This document shows positions 4,128-14,005 of a DNA stretch of 38,518 nt, piece after piece. The notes under the pieces were generated by a model. The model made no database searches. It was not told where the DNA came from and worked only from the letters and a program-made list of their open reading frames with translations. Source of the DNA: a virus; the IMG/VR virus record IMGVR_UViG_3300037089_000531, positions 1-38,518 of that record. The stretch is one strand, 5' to 3'. How positions within the stretch are numbered: position 1 is the stretch's first letter; each line of letters opens with the position of its first letter. The position numbers and the translations under genes are program-made.

Positions 4128-4657
4128 TGGCTTATGGATTCCCTAAATCATATGTTCTGTTAAGTAGACAGACGGCCTCCAATAGCACTACGATTGACTT
4201 TACGTCACTCATGACGACCGCATTCCAGACCTATAAGGTCGAACTGCAGAACATCATTCCGGTGACCACCACCGTAAAACTCCAGTTGTTGGTTAGCACA
4301 GACAACGGTAGCACCTGGGTAGCCACAAACTACCGCTGGGCGAACAACAACATCGATAGTGCAGCTACTAACGCGAGCTCCGGTAGCACGTCAGACAGCT
4401 CGTGGCAAATAGCATCTGCAATACCTAATAGCGCATCTGGCAGCCTCTCAGGTGAGCTGATACTCTATGACATGGAGAATGGCACCTTCGTGCCTAAATT
4501 CAGCAGCTCCACAGTCTACGGCGTGACGCCAACTTCCGGTTGGATGAGTGGCGGCGTGCAGACGAGCGTTACAGCCATCACAGCGATACGGTTCCAGATG
4601 TCCAGCGGTAATATCAGCAGCGGCACCTTTGTCCTTTACGGAGTCACCGAACCGTAG
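4127..4657 (+). CDS. Receptor-binding/fibre paralogue 3 of 3
   Basis: This 176-residue third copy has SNSTTIDFTSLMTTAF near residue 18, VSTDNGSTWVATNYRW near 65 and FQMSSGNISSGTFVLYGV at the C-terminus. The centre is serine-rich and unlike the other copies. An intrinsic-terminator-like structure follows the TAG stop, so the triplet may end a transcript segment. The domain is a single beta-rich unit without enzymatic motifs. Confidence 0.75.
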   Translation: MAYGFPKSYVLLSRQTASNSTTIDFTSLMTTAFQTYKVELQNIIPVTTTVKLQLLVSTDNGSTWVATNYRWANNNIDSAATNASSGSTSDSSWQIASAIPNSASGSLSGELILYDMENGTFVPKFSSSTVYGVTPTSGWMSGGVQTSVTAITAIRFQMSSGNISSGTFVLYGVTEP

Positions 4658-4671
4658 TAAAGTTGTTTTTT
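4634..4671 (+). terminator. Possible intrinsic terminator after the paralogue triplet
   Basis: CTTTACGG (4634-4641) can pair with the bulged complement CCGTA/AAG in 4652-4662 around a 10-nt loop. TTG and six T follow (4663-4671). The stem is modest and bulged, so termination may be partial. Confidence 0.4.
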
Positions 4672-4685
4672 AACCACGAGCTACC

Positions 4686-6239
4686 ATGGCACAACAGTTT
4701 GGACTCCCACCGCGCAACAAAGACACCCGAGACTATATCGGGCGTGGTATCGCTGCCACACCGACAGTGCAAGCGCCGCGCGATCCCGTAGATGCAAGTG
4801 ATCTAAAATATCCCATCCAGTGCCTCTGGCGAAACACAGTCACACAGGTCGAGTGGATTCTAGCAGGCTTCATCAGCGGTAATGCCAACTGGATTAAGTT
4901 CACCGGCGGCGGTAGCGGCCCGATGATTATGTTCATCGGAGGCGCTGGTACAGCCGGTACGTTCCCAGTCACTGCTACTAACGCAGGAAACATACTACTA
5001 ACATCGACTGGTTTGACCATCGTCATAACGGGCGTTGCCGGCCCAGGTGTTGGCCAAAATACGCTTAACTTTGACATAGCCGGCAGCGGCGGACCTGCGA
5101 TAGAAAATATAACACTGGATGCCCACACAGCCCCGGGCACTAACCCGGTCATTCCAACAGCCGGTGGTATAACGATTCTAGGGACTATCGTCGCAGCGCA
5201 TTCCAAGCCCATCCGTACTGACAGCTTAGCGGCCAACGCATTCAACATCGAAGCGCAGTTAACCACCACATCGACCTCAGGCGCTAAGACCATCAACAAC
5301 GCAGGTATGGCTAGCTTCGACAGCACAGCCTTCACCGTCGACGCAGCCACGGGCTTTGTAAGCCTGTCAACTGGCGTAGGTCCTGTCACGACAGCCTTCC
5401 AACTCGATCAGGGCGCTAACGTCGTCCCCAACAGCTCTGGCGTGGTCCAAGTGCATGGAACGACAGCCTCAGCCGCTGGTGTGCCAGTCTTCACGGCTAA
5501 CATCGGCGCTAATGAGTTCGAAGTAGCAGTGCAGCTGACCACCACAAGCGCTATTAGTGCTGTAACAGACGCAGGTTTGGCCTCCTTCAACAGCGCCGAT
5601 TTCACCGTAGATGGGAATGGCCGCGTAACACTAATTGGAAGCGGCGGAGCGCCCATACAGACAGTCACAGGCGATAGTGGCGGAGCGCTTAGCCCTACAG
5701 CGGGTAACTTCAACTTCGTCGGCGCTACCGTAGCCAACGGCACAGACTCCAAGCCAGTATTCTTCAAAGGCGCAGGGAGCACAGAAACCCTCGATGTGCA
5801 GTTCGCAGCGGCTAACGCCACTTCAGTGGGCACTAAGGCCGGATTAGCATCTTTTGATAGCAATGGATTCACCGTCGATGCCAATGGCTTTGTAGCCCTA
5901 GCAGGAACCGGAAGCTTAATATGGGTCAACCAGACCGCAGATCTAAACCCACTGGTTAAAGCACATGCCTACCAGGCCAACAAAGCAGGTACCGCAGCGG
6001 CCTTGACGTTGCCCACGGGAGCCACCTTCGGCGACACAATCAGGGTGCAGGGCTTCGGCGCTACCGGCTGGGTGCTTAATGCTGGTGTCGGTCAGACAAT
6101 CATTGTCGAAGCTAAAGCCACGACCGTAGCGGGCTCTGTGACATTTACAAACGCAAACGATTATATCCAAGTGACGGCCAGTTCCACAACCACGACATGG
6201 TTTGCAACAGCCCATGGCGGTAACCTAACGGTGGCATAA
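4686..6239 (+). CDS. Large tail-fibre protein with repeated FTVDANG modules
   Basis: This 517-residue protein has an N-terminal region (about 1-75, with DLKYPIQCLW and a later W-x2-F) that parallels the start of the split fibre gene at 37816 (DIKYPIGTIW), so the two probably attach to the same virion site. The middle holds three repeats of about 85-100 residues, each ending in AG[ML]ASFxSxxFTVDxxxGxVxL. The last 120 residues form a distinct beta domain. Repeats of this kind are widespread in phage fibres. The gene starts after a possible terminator and overlaps the beta-helix gene by 1 bp (TAATG). A long antisense frame in the same stretch is a codon-bias shadow. Confidence 0.85.
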   Translation: MAQQFGLPPRNKDTRDYIGRGIAATPTVQAPRDPVDASDLKYPIQCLWRNTVTQVEWILAGFISGNANWIKFTGGGSGPMIMFIGGAGTAGTFPVTATNAGNILLTSTGLTIVITGVAGPGVGQNTLNFDIAGSGGPAIENITLDAHTAPGTNPVIPTAGGITILGTIVAAHSKPIRTDSLAANAFNIEAQLTTTSTSGAKTINNAGMASFDSTAFTVDAATGFVSLSTGVGPVTTAFQLDQGANVVPNSSGVVQVHGTTASAAGVPVFTANIGANEFEVAVQLTTTSAISAVTDAGLASFNSADFTVDGNGRVTLIGSGGAPIQTVTGDSGGALSPTAGNFNFVGATVANGTDSKPVFFKGAGSTETLDVQFAAANATSVGTKAGLASFDSNGFTVDANGFVALAGTGSLIWVNQTADLNPLVKAHAYQANKAGTAAALTLPTGATFGDTIRVQGFGATGWVLNAGVGQTIIVEAKATTVAGSVTFTNANDYIQVTASSTTTTWFATAHGGNLTVA

Positions 6240-10472: not shown

Positions 10473-11122
10473 TCCACCTCTATCGTTTTAGGCTTTAGCT
10501 TAAGAAATTTGTAACAATGTAGCGCGCTGAAGAAGATAGACTCAGCCTGCGCTAAGCTGTCAACCATGTTAGGGATCGCTTTAGATCCGTCTTTACGTAA
10601 CCTTAATGTCATAGCGTTACTGACGAAATTGGTCGGCTCAGTCTCTCTCAGCAGATACCTATAGCCTCCAAGCTGGATATCCCAGGACCGATGCTTAGCA
10701 CTACTGGTCTTAAGATCGACGAGAGTCAACCCATCGATATCCTTAAGCTTAACAAGCAAATCTATCTGACCGGTGATCATATGAGTTTGACAGTATCGAC
10801 GCGTCTCCATCTCAAAGATCTCAACGATATTGTCCTTCGCCCAGGTCTTAAAGCTGTCAAGGTAGCCCTCGTATGCAGCTGGATAACCCGACACGATCAA
10901 ACCGCTTAGGTAAGCCTCGCACAGCCTATGCACATCTTTCCCACGCTTGGCGGCAGCAGCTAGCACATCCGCGGGAATTGACGTAAAATCAGTAAAGAGG
11001 TTAGCTATGTTCGTGACTCGAATGAAGTTTGTTTCCTCACTCTTCATAGATCCATCATCCTGAATTTCACCGTCTGCGGGCCTAACCGCAGGCGGTGTTT
11101 TATTTAAGCCGTCTGTTTCCAT
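10469..11122 (-). CDS. PD-(D/E)XK recombination exonuclease (Bet partner)
   Basis: In this 217-residue protein RGKDVHRLCEAYL carries His65 of a GxxxH helix, TGQIDLLV supplies Asp121, TLVDLKTSS supplies Asp136 and Lys138, and WDIQLGGYRYLL supplies Gln150 and Tyr154. These are the RecB/Cas4/YqaJ-like nuclease motifs in order. It probably resects double-strand ends to give substrate for the annealing protein encoded just downstream. Start 11122 has AAGG 5 nt upstream and overlaps the preceding gene by 19 bp; an internal Met at about residue 26 is a possible shorter start. The first 30 residues are polar and probably disordered. Confidence 0.85.
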   Translation of the reverse strand: METDGLNKTPPAVRPADGEIQDDGSMKSEETNFIRVTNIANLFTDFTSIPADVLAAAAKRGKDVHRLCEAYLSGLIVSGYPAAYEGYLDSFKTWAKDNIVEIFEMETRRYCQTHMITGQIDLLVKLKDIDGLTLVDLKTSSAKHRSWDIQLGGYRYLLRETEPTNFVSNAMTLRLRKDGSKAIPNMVDSLAQAESIFFSALHCYKFLKLKPKTIEVE

Positions 11123-12287: not shown

Positions 12288-12554
12288 ATGGATGATCGAT
12301 TCATCAGTCAGACCGCTCTACTTCTCATCTCGGAGAACTGCTCCAGGGCACTTTCAACCTATTTAATCTGCCACAAACACTCCGATCAAGATCACTTCCT
12401 TCAAGTCACAAAAGACCAGATAAACATTGACGAATCACTGTCATGGACGAAGTTCAAAAATGACCTCAAGGCATTATCAAGACAAGGATTACTCGAATGG
12501 ATAGATCAAGACGACGACACCATAAATATCACACTATCGGAATGGGACCTCTAA
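12288..12554 (+). CDS. Small winged-helix-like protein
   Basis: This 88-residue protein has a helical start (FISQTALLLISENCSRALST) and an end that reads like a winged-helix recognition helix and wing (KFKNDLKALSRQGLLEWI, then a beta pair INITLSEW). It may be a DNA-binding replication accessory. ATG at 12288 has GAGG 6 nt upstream; a TTG at 12276 is in frame but has no ribosome site. It overlaps the next gene by TAATG, first of a three-gene replication group. Confidence 0.6.
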   Translation: MDDRFISQTALLLISENCSRALSTYLICHKHSDQDHFLQVTKDQINIDESLSWTKFKNDLKALSRQGLLEWIDQDDDTINITLSEWDL

Positions 12555-12886
12555 TGCAGTTTATCGTGTGTGGTAAGTGCCATGATGAGCTCCAGGAGGC
12601 TAATCCAATATTGGTTAACCTATGGATTCACATATGCCGGGCGTATCTCAAAACAGGTCTGCCCTATAGAGGTATAGACTTTTTTGTGGACGTCGCCACG
12701 TACAGGATTATGCCCTCAAGCGAAACGCTTAATGACAAGCTGATACAGCTCGAACAGATGGGTTATATTCTCACCACCGAAGACGACATGGGCGTGCTGA
12801 TCAAGCCCCTTGGCCTATGCGTAGAGACAGTCAACCCTAATGGCGAAGAGAAAGAGTTCGCATGGTTTTGCCCGCTAGATCATTGA
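12554..12886 (+). CDS. Winged-helix-like protein with CxxC motif
   Basis: This 110-residue protein begins MQFIVCGKCHDEL, a possible half zinc site, and ends EFAWFCPLDH, which could supply further ligands (Cys, His). The centre (NDKLIQLEQMGYILTTE) has the helix-then-wing character of small replication proteins. ATG at 12554 is chosen because of the TAATG overlap; the frame is open further upstream only inside the preceding gene. The replisome-organiser gene follows 12 bp later. The role in replication is inferred from neighbours. Confidence 0.6.
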   Translation: MQFIVCGKCHDELQEANPILVNLWIHICRAYLKTGLPYRGIDFFVDVATYRIMPSSETLNDKLIQLEQMGYILTTEDDMGVLIKPLGLCVETVNPNGEEKEFAWFCPLDH

Positions 12887-12898
12887 TCAAGGAGTTTT

Positions 12899-14005
12899 AT
12901 GCAGCTTGAAAGGGATGTTCTGGCGCTTAATGGCGAGCTTGATATAAAAAAGAAGCCCGGGGCGGAAACCCCGGGCAAGTCTGCTAAGACGGGTGATATA
13001 GTACCCCCCATATTAGCAGAACCGCCTTATCACGCAAGTGATAAAAATACTTTACAGGCGACTACTGCTATGTCAAATCATAACGATACCGGATTCACCA
13101 AAATAGCCAATAGTCTTAGGGATCATCCGGCTTACAGAACCGCTAAGCCCAAACACCGCTATATATTTTTGGAACTTCTCTTGCGGGCGGCTTGGGAACC
13201 CACGACTTATCCCTATTATGGCATTGGTTATCCTCAAAAAAGGGGGCAAGTATTTTTTACCATTAGAGGACTGGCAAAGGAGCTAACTTGGGAAGGCACG
13301 GCCGAAGATAAGATAACCAGGCACGATATTGACGGATGTATAACCTTTTTTTCGCGGTGCAAAATGCTCGGACAGGAGCTCGGACACCCCTTTAGTGCTA
13401 TAACTATCTTATATTCATCGTTTTGCGACGAAGAAAAGATTTATGGTCGGACAGGAGCTCGGACAGAGCTCGGACAGAGCTCGGACAGTCTTAAAGATAT
13501 CTTAGATACTAAAGATAAGAAGAAGAGGGGGAGGGAGAGGAAAGCCGCTGGCGCGGCCACCCCCCCACCGGATTCTTCGAAACTCTGTTTTGGAGAGGAG
13601 GGTCTCGTAAAACTCACTCAGGTTCAGTACGAAAAACTTCTAGCTGAGGTCGGTGAGGAGGGAACGCAATGGATGATTCAAAAGCTTGGCGCTAAGATAC
13701 CTAACATCGATAAAGCGTACAAATCACACTTCCACACGATGTGTAAGACCGGATGGGTTCGAGATGAATGGATAAAACATAGTCAAAATGGCATCCAAAC
13801 CGCTAAGGCAAAGAGATATACGGTCCTAGATTTATTCCGTGAATATAAATTTCCAGAATCGTTTGATGAGTGGGTCGTTGGGTTTGGTATGGTCAAGGGG
13901 AGGGCTCACGGAAGCGGCGGCAGCACGGAATATTCTTTTCTAATCGATGACATCGAAACGGCGCGCCAATGGCTGGATAAACGAAAATACATTATCAGAC
14001 GGTAA
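12899..14005 (+). CDS. Replication initiator/replisome organiser carrying origin-like repeats
   Basis: In this 368-residue protein, residues about 58-160 (FTKIANSLRDHPAYR, then RYIFLELLLRAAW, GQVFFTIRGLAKELTW) look like the winged-helix N-terminus of phage initiators. Residues about 235-300 (VKLTQVQYEKLLAEVGEE, then a Y-x-SHFHTMCKTGW region) match the C-terminal part of phage replication proteins. AAGGAG lies 4 nt before ATG 12899. The first 57 residues look unconserved and overlap a predicted antisense RNA. An alternative ATG at 13071 starts at the conserved domain but has a poor ribosome site. Direct repeats and an AT-rich tract at 13366-13525 lie inside the gene, as the origin does in lambda O. 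It is probably early and essential. Confidence 0.75.
   Translation: MQLERDVLALNGELDIKKKPGAETPGKSAKTGDIVPPILAEPPYHASDKNTLQATTAMSNHNDTGFTKIANSLRDHPAYRTAKPKHRYIFLELLLRAAWEPTTYPYYGIGYPQKRGQVFFTIRGLAKELTWEGTAEDKITRHDIDGCITFFSRCKMLGQELGHPFSAITILYSSFCDEEKIYGRTGARTELGQSSDSLKDILDTKDKKKRGRERKAAGAATPPPDSSKLCFGEEGLVKLTQVQYEKLLAEVGEEGTQWMIQKLGAKIPNIDKAYKSHFHTMCKTGWVRDEWIKHSQNGIQTAKAKRYTVLDLFREYKFPESFDEWVVGFGMVKGRAHGSGGSTEYSFLIDDIETARQWLDKRKYIIRR
12946..13042 (-). ncRNA. Predicted structured antisense RNA in the initiator gene
   Basis: On the minus strand a consensus -35 TTGACA (13076-13071), 16 bp and TAAAGT (13054-13049) predict a start near 13042. The transcript would fold into three successive hairpins: TTATCAC/GTGATAA (13044-13027, the first bases may precede the start), TCTGCTAA/TTAGCAGA enclosing GGGT/ACCC (13020-12980), and GCCCGGGG/CCCCGGGC (12976-12955). 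The last is followed by TTCTTTTTT (12954-12946), a good intrinsic terminator. It is complementary to the translated 5' region of the initiator mRNA. By analogy with lambda OOP and plasmid copy-control RNAs it could limit replication. All signals are seen in the sequence; expression is not shown. Confidence 0.6.
13049..13076 (-). promoter_or_regulatory. Minus-strand promoter for the antisense RNA
   Basis: Perfect TTGACA (13076-13071) with a 16-bp spacer to TAAAGT (13054-13049), directed away from the initiator reading frame. A matching terminator lies about 100 bp downstream and nothing else is encoded on this strand nearby. Confidence 0.55.
13366..13525 (+). repeat. Iteron-like repeats and AT-rich tract, candidate replication origin
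   Basis: GCTCGGACA occurs at 13366 and 13378. Then TCGGACA recurs at 13447, 13459, 13470 and 13481, three of these as the full GAGCTCGGACA. Spacing is 11-12 bp, about one helical turn. Because 11 is not a multiple of three, the copies are read in different frames, so the repetition is kept at the DNA level. Directly downstream (13488-13525) is an AT-rich tract with TTAAAGATA, TTAGATAC and CTAAAGATA, like a DNA-unwinding element. The layout matches lambda-type origins inside initiator genes. Confidence 0.7.

Follow-up and report, generated by a model that had tools for sequence, protein, structure and literature searches.

The replication initiator gene of a phage with a P22-type portal is probably preceded by a genuine antisense unit of the lambda OOP kind, which would restrain the early transcript at the initiator. 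The window, meaning the whole viral record IMGVR_UViG_3300037089_000531 (38,518 bases), carries on its minus strand at 12946-13076 all the elements that an earlier note on this DNA had listed: a promoter, three stems, a GC-only terminator and a U-tract. The position of the cassette is conserved across distant phages, and its sequence turns over while the pairing is kept. From these observations we infer that the unit is transcribed and that its RNA dampens the early transcript at the junction of the upstream gene and the initiator.

The kind of unit is known; what sets the sequences apart as a variant is the promoter embedded in a dyad, the modular spread over unrelated initiators and the probable overlap with coding sequence. 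Tentatively, we suggest that replication-linked antisense units of a class not described before are widespread in uncultivated P22-portal phages. In this class the -10 box of the promoter would itself form an arm of a conserved dyad, the module would move without regard to the family of the initiator, and some of the units would be overlapped by a coding extension of the initiator. If this is true, one stretch of DNA would encode both a protein and its antisense regulator in some phages.

The phage and its relatives

Besides the P22-type portal, the window phage, which is known from metagenomic sequence only, has genes for a large terminase and a major head protein, as well as RecT and exonuclease genes on the minus strand. 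Its gene order is lambdoid, with a regulator, a gene in the position of cII and an initiator containing the origin. A small repressor-like HTH gene (11864) and another small gene (12276) are followed by a small C..C (zinc-ribbon-like) gene that occupies the position of lambda cII (12554-12886, plus strand) and for which a Pfam search returned no match. A C..C gene of this type also stands before the cassette in most of the related contigs (designated by L-numbers) L095, L033, L088, L089, L081, L133, L134 and L135. The initiator is a plus-strand open reading frame of 368 amino acids (12899-14005) that matches the PHROG families DnaD-like helicase loader (8.7e-7) and replisome organizer (2.6e-4). 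As the earlier note had stated, origin-like repeats lie inside this gene, namely five iteron-like copies of the type GAGCTCGGACA (13364-13488, plus strand) that presumably mark the origin. Tandem repeats of the type ATAGTATTTG are found in L098 at about 4600-4700, in the leader before the initiator, and are perhaps iterons outside the gene.

Since the initiator evolves fast, relatives were gathered via portal and terminase, and their initiators were then located by iterative profile search. Terminase and portal of the distant relatives are about 40-60% identical; the initiators are about 16-35% identical pairwise and barely alignable, and some belong to unrelated families. Among the cultivated phages in the collection no relative of the window initiator was detectable by DNA or protein, and a blastn search of the cassette against the phages in the collection gave no sequence similarity. 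No cassette relatives were found in plasmids. Two host scans with terminase alignments over 84,980 bacterial and archaeal genomes yielded no relative, a single-protein scan with L089 returned its own contig alone, and the divergence within the initiator alignment A4 was too great to scan with a pattern derived from it. The only near-identical viral contig found, L001/L024, has zero differences from the window across 12552-13880 and is therefore uninformative on the cassette. L001 is otherwise about 2% different, which points to either a recent exchange of the initiator region or a very strong constraint over this 1.3 kb.

Promoters, stems and terminators before the initiator

The promoter named in the earlier note, here P1 (13076-13049, minus strand), consists of TTGACA (13076-13071), a 16-nt spacer and TAAAGT (13054-13049) and overlaps the ATG at 13070. 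It has the best promoter score in the window leader, a score reached by 0.5% of leader shuffles. It is not, however, the conserved promoter: a P1-like TTGACA-15-TAAAGT occurs among the relatives in L128 only. The conserved promoter, P2, lies about 40 nt nearer the terminator (13037-13010, minus strand) and combines TTGCGT (13037-13032), a 16-nt spacer and the extended -10 element TGC-TAATAT (13015-13010), with a predicted start at about 13003. Written as a motif its window form is TTGCGT-16-TGCTAATAT, and the antisense motif TTG-N17-19-GCTANNAT stands immediately before the initiator starts of L033, L081, L089, L095, L121 and L133. The motif is present in 7/12 leaders used to define it, and outside this set it recurs about 12-37 nt upstream of the initiators of L119, L134 and L135; a whole-locus scan gave 86 matches in 3.2 Mb of strand, a background of 0.0027 per 100 nt. 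When the leaders were scored for sigma-70 promoters, a distance of 37-59 nt separated the start codon from the -10 box of the best or second-best site in most relatives. P2 is a middling sigma-70 match whose score is reached by a third of shuffles. P1 and P2 may both be functional. Transcription from P2 to the terminator would give an OOP-like antisense RNA of about 55-58 nt (12946-13003, minus strand), and use of P1 one of about 97 nt starting at 13042.

The stems follow one another on the minus strand. The first, with 7 bp (TTATCAC-TTGC-GTGATAA, 13027-13044), is evident from sequence and fold and overlaps the P2 -35 box; TTATCAC/GTGATAA was not seen as a constant element in the relatives. 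The second, 'hairpin 1', is a long imperfect inverted repeat (12980-13020) whose outer arms TCTGCTAA/TTAGCAGA pair over 8 bp and whose 5' arm holds the P2 -10 box. The third is the intrinsic terminator stem GCCCGGGGTTTCCGCCCCGGGC (12955-12976), with GC-only arms GCCCGGGG/CCCCGGGC of 8 bp and about -19 kcal/mol, followed by the U-tract TTCTTTTTT (12946-12954) at the predicted RNA 3' end. Three consecutive hairpins, as proposed earlier, are present in the DNA but may not exist in the RNA, since a transcript started at P2 would include neither the first stem nor the second stem's 5' arm. The accompanying claim that this strand encodes nothing else holds in that no open reading frame of at least 50 aa lies within the span, although a 58-aa frame ends at 13073.

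The 97-nt predicted RNA folds at -44.5 kcal/mol (z -5.3), and 0/200 shuffles fold as well. The plus strand reaches z -5.7, so folding alone picks no strand, and the cassette is assigned to the minus strand because the U-tract is found there only. Promoter-like sites number 15 in the surrounding 15 kb, below the 25.7 of shuffled sequence, and the 16 terminator-like sites are about as many as chance gives (14.0), so that outside evidence is needed; the terminator at 12955-12976 is among the three strongest in this region. On its own the window sequence is suggestive, and it is the comparison with relatives that lifts the cassette above chance. An Rfam scan of the window returned no match at gathering thresholds, and since a scan of lambda itself gave no match naming OOP either, Rfam cannot decide OOP membership. 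Below threshold, the terminator and the preceding stem (12949-13022, minus strand) resemble the Rhodobacter RNAs SorX (RF02784, 33.4 bits against a threshold of 46.6) and SorY (RF02651, 24.6 against 111). Both identities were rejected, the overlap being largely, and probably, one of generic terminator shape.

Most relatives have an antisense intrinsic terminator upstream of the initiator start, usually at 76-112 bp. The distance is 94 bp in the window (counted from the ATG at 13070), 97 in L095, 96 in L026, 76 in L033, 102 in L088, 100 in L081, 112 in L121, 96 in L128 and 82 in L133, and it is larger in L098 (172 bp) and L061 (252 bp). Scanning 200 nt upstream of each gene with fixed criteria, we found an antisense terminator at 10/20 initiators and at 21/957 other genes of the same contigs. 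The Fisher p value of 3e-11 is approximate, because the 20 initiators include L134, which was found while studying the cassette, and four have hand-curated starts. Sense terminators were found by the same scan upstream of 0/20 initiators. Strict detectors miss some terminators that are visible by eye (L089, L135), and those of L089, L059, L134 and L135 were accepted by inspection; a convincing antisense terminator is absent at 5/20 initiators (L034, L075, L119, L126 and L138). In L133 and L134 the leaders are 80% identical, the initiators are unrelated and the terminator stems differ by compensating changes. These two related phages share the cassette at this identity (L133 7238-7352, L134 2845-2962), with the unrelated initiator gene coming right after it.

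In most relatives, too, a long inverted repeat carries the P2 -10 box in its left arm and provides right-side partners for positions -8 to +10. Pairing is kept while the sequence changes, with 3-5 standard pair types in many columns. The pairs were tabulated fold by fold from individual folds and not by a covariance model, because MAFFT misaligns the arms of such divergent leaders; the counts consequently lean towards the fold. Upon transcription from P2 the left arm would fall outside the RNA, so that the repeat would function either at the DNA level, as an operator-type dyad, or as a hairpin, formed in the sense leader or in an RNA started further upstream, for example at P1. Folding energies do not favour one of the two strands, and hand counts of G-U wobbles (6 favouring the antisense strand, 2 the sense strand) are not decisive. 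Of all parts of the cassette, the inverted repeat is the one explained least.

Probable coding sequence through the cassette

The window initiator frame begins with a 57-codon N-terminal extension (12899-13069, plus strand) that runs through the cassette and has an AAGGAG Shine-Dalgarno sequence in front. Alignment A4 suggests an alternative start at the ATG 13070-13072 (MSNHNDTGFTKI...), and homology of the relatives to the window initiator starts near residue 58-64, that is, near this ATG. The extension looks coding by its codon usage: it scores 0.252 per codon, compared with a mean of 0.296 for true frames and -0.166 for wrong frames, and 0.3% of wrong-frame windows reach its score. A similar extension of the L081 initiator scores 0.26 per codon, based on a small training set. 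Judging from codon usage, protein-coding sequence and the antisense unit probably overlap in the window phage and in L081. The earlier placement of the cassette inside the initiator gene is therefore likely to be right for these two phages, and it is limited to them because initiator homology begins near ATG 13070; in most relatives the cassette lies in the gap before the initiator.

Known antisense units and the proposed mode of action

Most work on OOP RNA concerns lambda and P22, and there is still dispute about what the RNA does in replication. Scanning lambda (L003) for terminators and promoters, we found that an antisense terminator precedes O by 57 bp and that a promoter overlaps the start codon of O; P22 has an annotated oop promoter and terminator at the corresponding place. 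The P22 oop RNA, with 63 nt, has been observed by sequencing (PMC13397905). The antisense orientation, the intrinsic terminator and the comparison with lambda OOP, all proposed in the earlier note, are supported by many relatives as well as by lambda and P22. As in lambda, a short antisense unit sits between the cII-position gene and the initiator, with the promoter overlapping or just before the initiator start, the terminator lying 57 bp upstream in lambda and 94 bp upstream in the window, and iterons inside the initiator gene. P22 oop shares the antisense orientation and a terminator upstream of the early replication genes, but is antisense to c1 and has the small orf48 between oop and gene 18.

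By its sequence, the window unit is antisense to the early rightward transcript directly upstream of the initiator, and has a predicted promoter of its own and an intrinsic terminator, but it does not overlap the 3' end of a cII (or c1) gene. In lambda, the final 52 bases of cII are covered by OOP (PMC5869508), whereas about 60 nt separate the end of the predicted window RNA, at 12946 or above, from the stop of the upstream gene at 12886. OOP-type RNAs of lambdoid phages are characterized by a length of 60-80 nt; the window RNA is predicted at 58 or 97 nt. Further differences from lambda are the long dyad containing the -10 box and the initiator frame running through the cassette. Plasmid copy-control antisense RNAs, such as CopA of R1 and the Inc RNA of IncI, had been named as a second precedent. 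Like these, the window RNA would lie antisense over a replication-initiator leader, and coupling of a leader frame is possible; unlike them, it has no homology found in plasmids and no attenuator-type sense terminator. A copy-control role of the plasmid type is only an analogy.

We propose that RNA polymerase would start on the minus strand before the initiator, probably at P2 (13037-13010) and perhaps also at P1 (13076-13049), proceed for about 55-97 nt against early rightward transcription and come to a halt at the intrinsic terminator (12976-12955) without reaching the upstream gene. The RNA would pair with the leader, and in the window phage also with the extended initiator frame, exposing the transcript to double-strand cleavage of the RNase III type, and head-on interference, which has been reported for lambda pO, would limit transcription that enters the origin. 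Simple occlusion of the start at 13070 is excluded because the RNA covers neither the start codon nor the region just before it. With an RNA ending about 60 nt past the upstream stop, the cII-directed action of lambda would not be exactly copied, but restraint of the early transcript could be.

How this restraint would work admits a variant in which interference matters and the RNA is a by-product, the convergent unit throttling rightward transcription into the origin. In lambda, pO activity lowers pR transcription and supports replication, a pO mutation increases pR-driven transcription past pO and impairs replication, and oop RNA leaves the stability of the O-P mRNA unaltered (PMC3985674). 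This variant also fits with the conserved positions of promoter and terminator next to an unconserved RNA sequence, and with a cassette that stays when the initiator gene is exchanged (L133/L134). Yet a cis-antisense RNA need not keep its sequence, as target and RNA change together, and conservation of the inverted repeat hints at something beyond a promoter; we regard a mere by-product as a reasonable possibility, though not the expected one. It is unlikely, in our view, that the RNA instead acts on the translation of a leader frame which is coupled or fused to the initiator, in the manner of R1-type and IncI-type plasmid copy control. In favour of such control are the coding-like initiator frames of the window and L081 and the AAGGAG before ATG 12899, and in L095, L033 and L088 a separate open frame crosses the cassette, ending 8 nt inside the initiator. 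However, frames of this sort exist in part of the set only (none in L026, L089, L121 and L134), most are without a clear Shine-Dalgarno sequence and some are expected by chance.

Two further explanations dispense with a dedicated RNA or with the antisense strand. The terminator might only stop unwanted leftward transcription, with the inverted repeat serving as an operator for a phage regulator. The repeat does span the P2 -10 box as an operator would, folding leaves the selected strand unspecified, and some relatives have antisense terminators upstream of recT/exo as well; but in most relatives a promoter within a narrow range of positions points at the terminator, and lambda and P22 make a real RNA from the corresponding place, which leaves this account rather improbable. 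Alternatively, the structure might belong to the leader of the sense mRNA and serve antitermination or processing, for instance, with incidental antisense features; this idea draws on the sense strand folding about as well as the antisense strand. We consider it very improbable given the U-tract on the antisense side, the lack of sense terminators in the scan and the conservation of the antisense promoter.

Under the preferred reading as an OOP-like unit, its presence before unrelated initiators, in phages without a close cultivated relative in the collection, indicates that the arrangement is under selection and not a peculiarity of lambda. Selection would be for control of the early transcript or of replication. 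The natural variants, differing in spacing, with a swapped initiator or with a fused frame, offer a means to separate RNA action from promoter interference.

Apart from the initiator leader, strong terminators antisense to the recT/exo operon were observed in L081 (3705-3731), L088 (3714-3741), L095 (4064-4098) and L097 (479-506), and in the relatives they stand 58-83 bp upstream of the recT starts. The window has a strong terminator antisense to recT/exo at 11068-11097 (plus strand), near the 5' end of the exo gene. These terminators possibly belong to a second antisense unit, located in the leftward operon.
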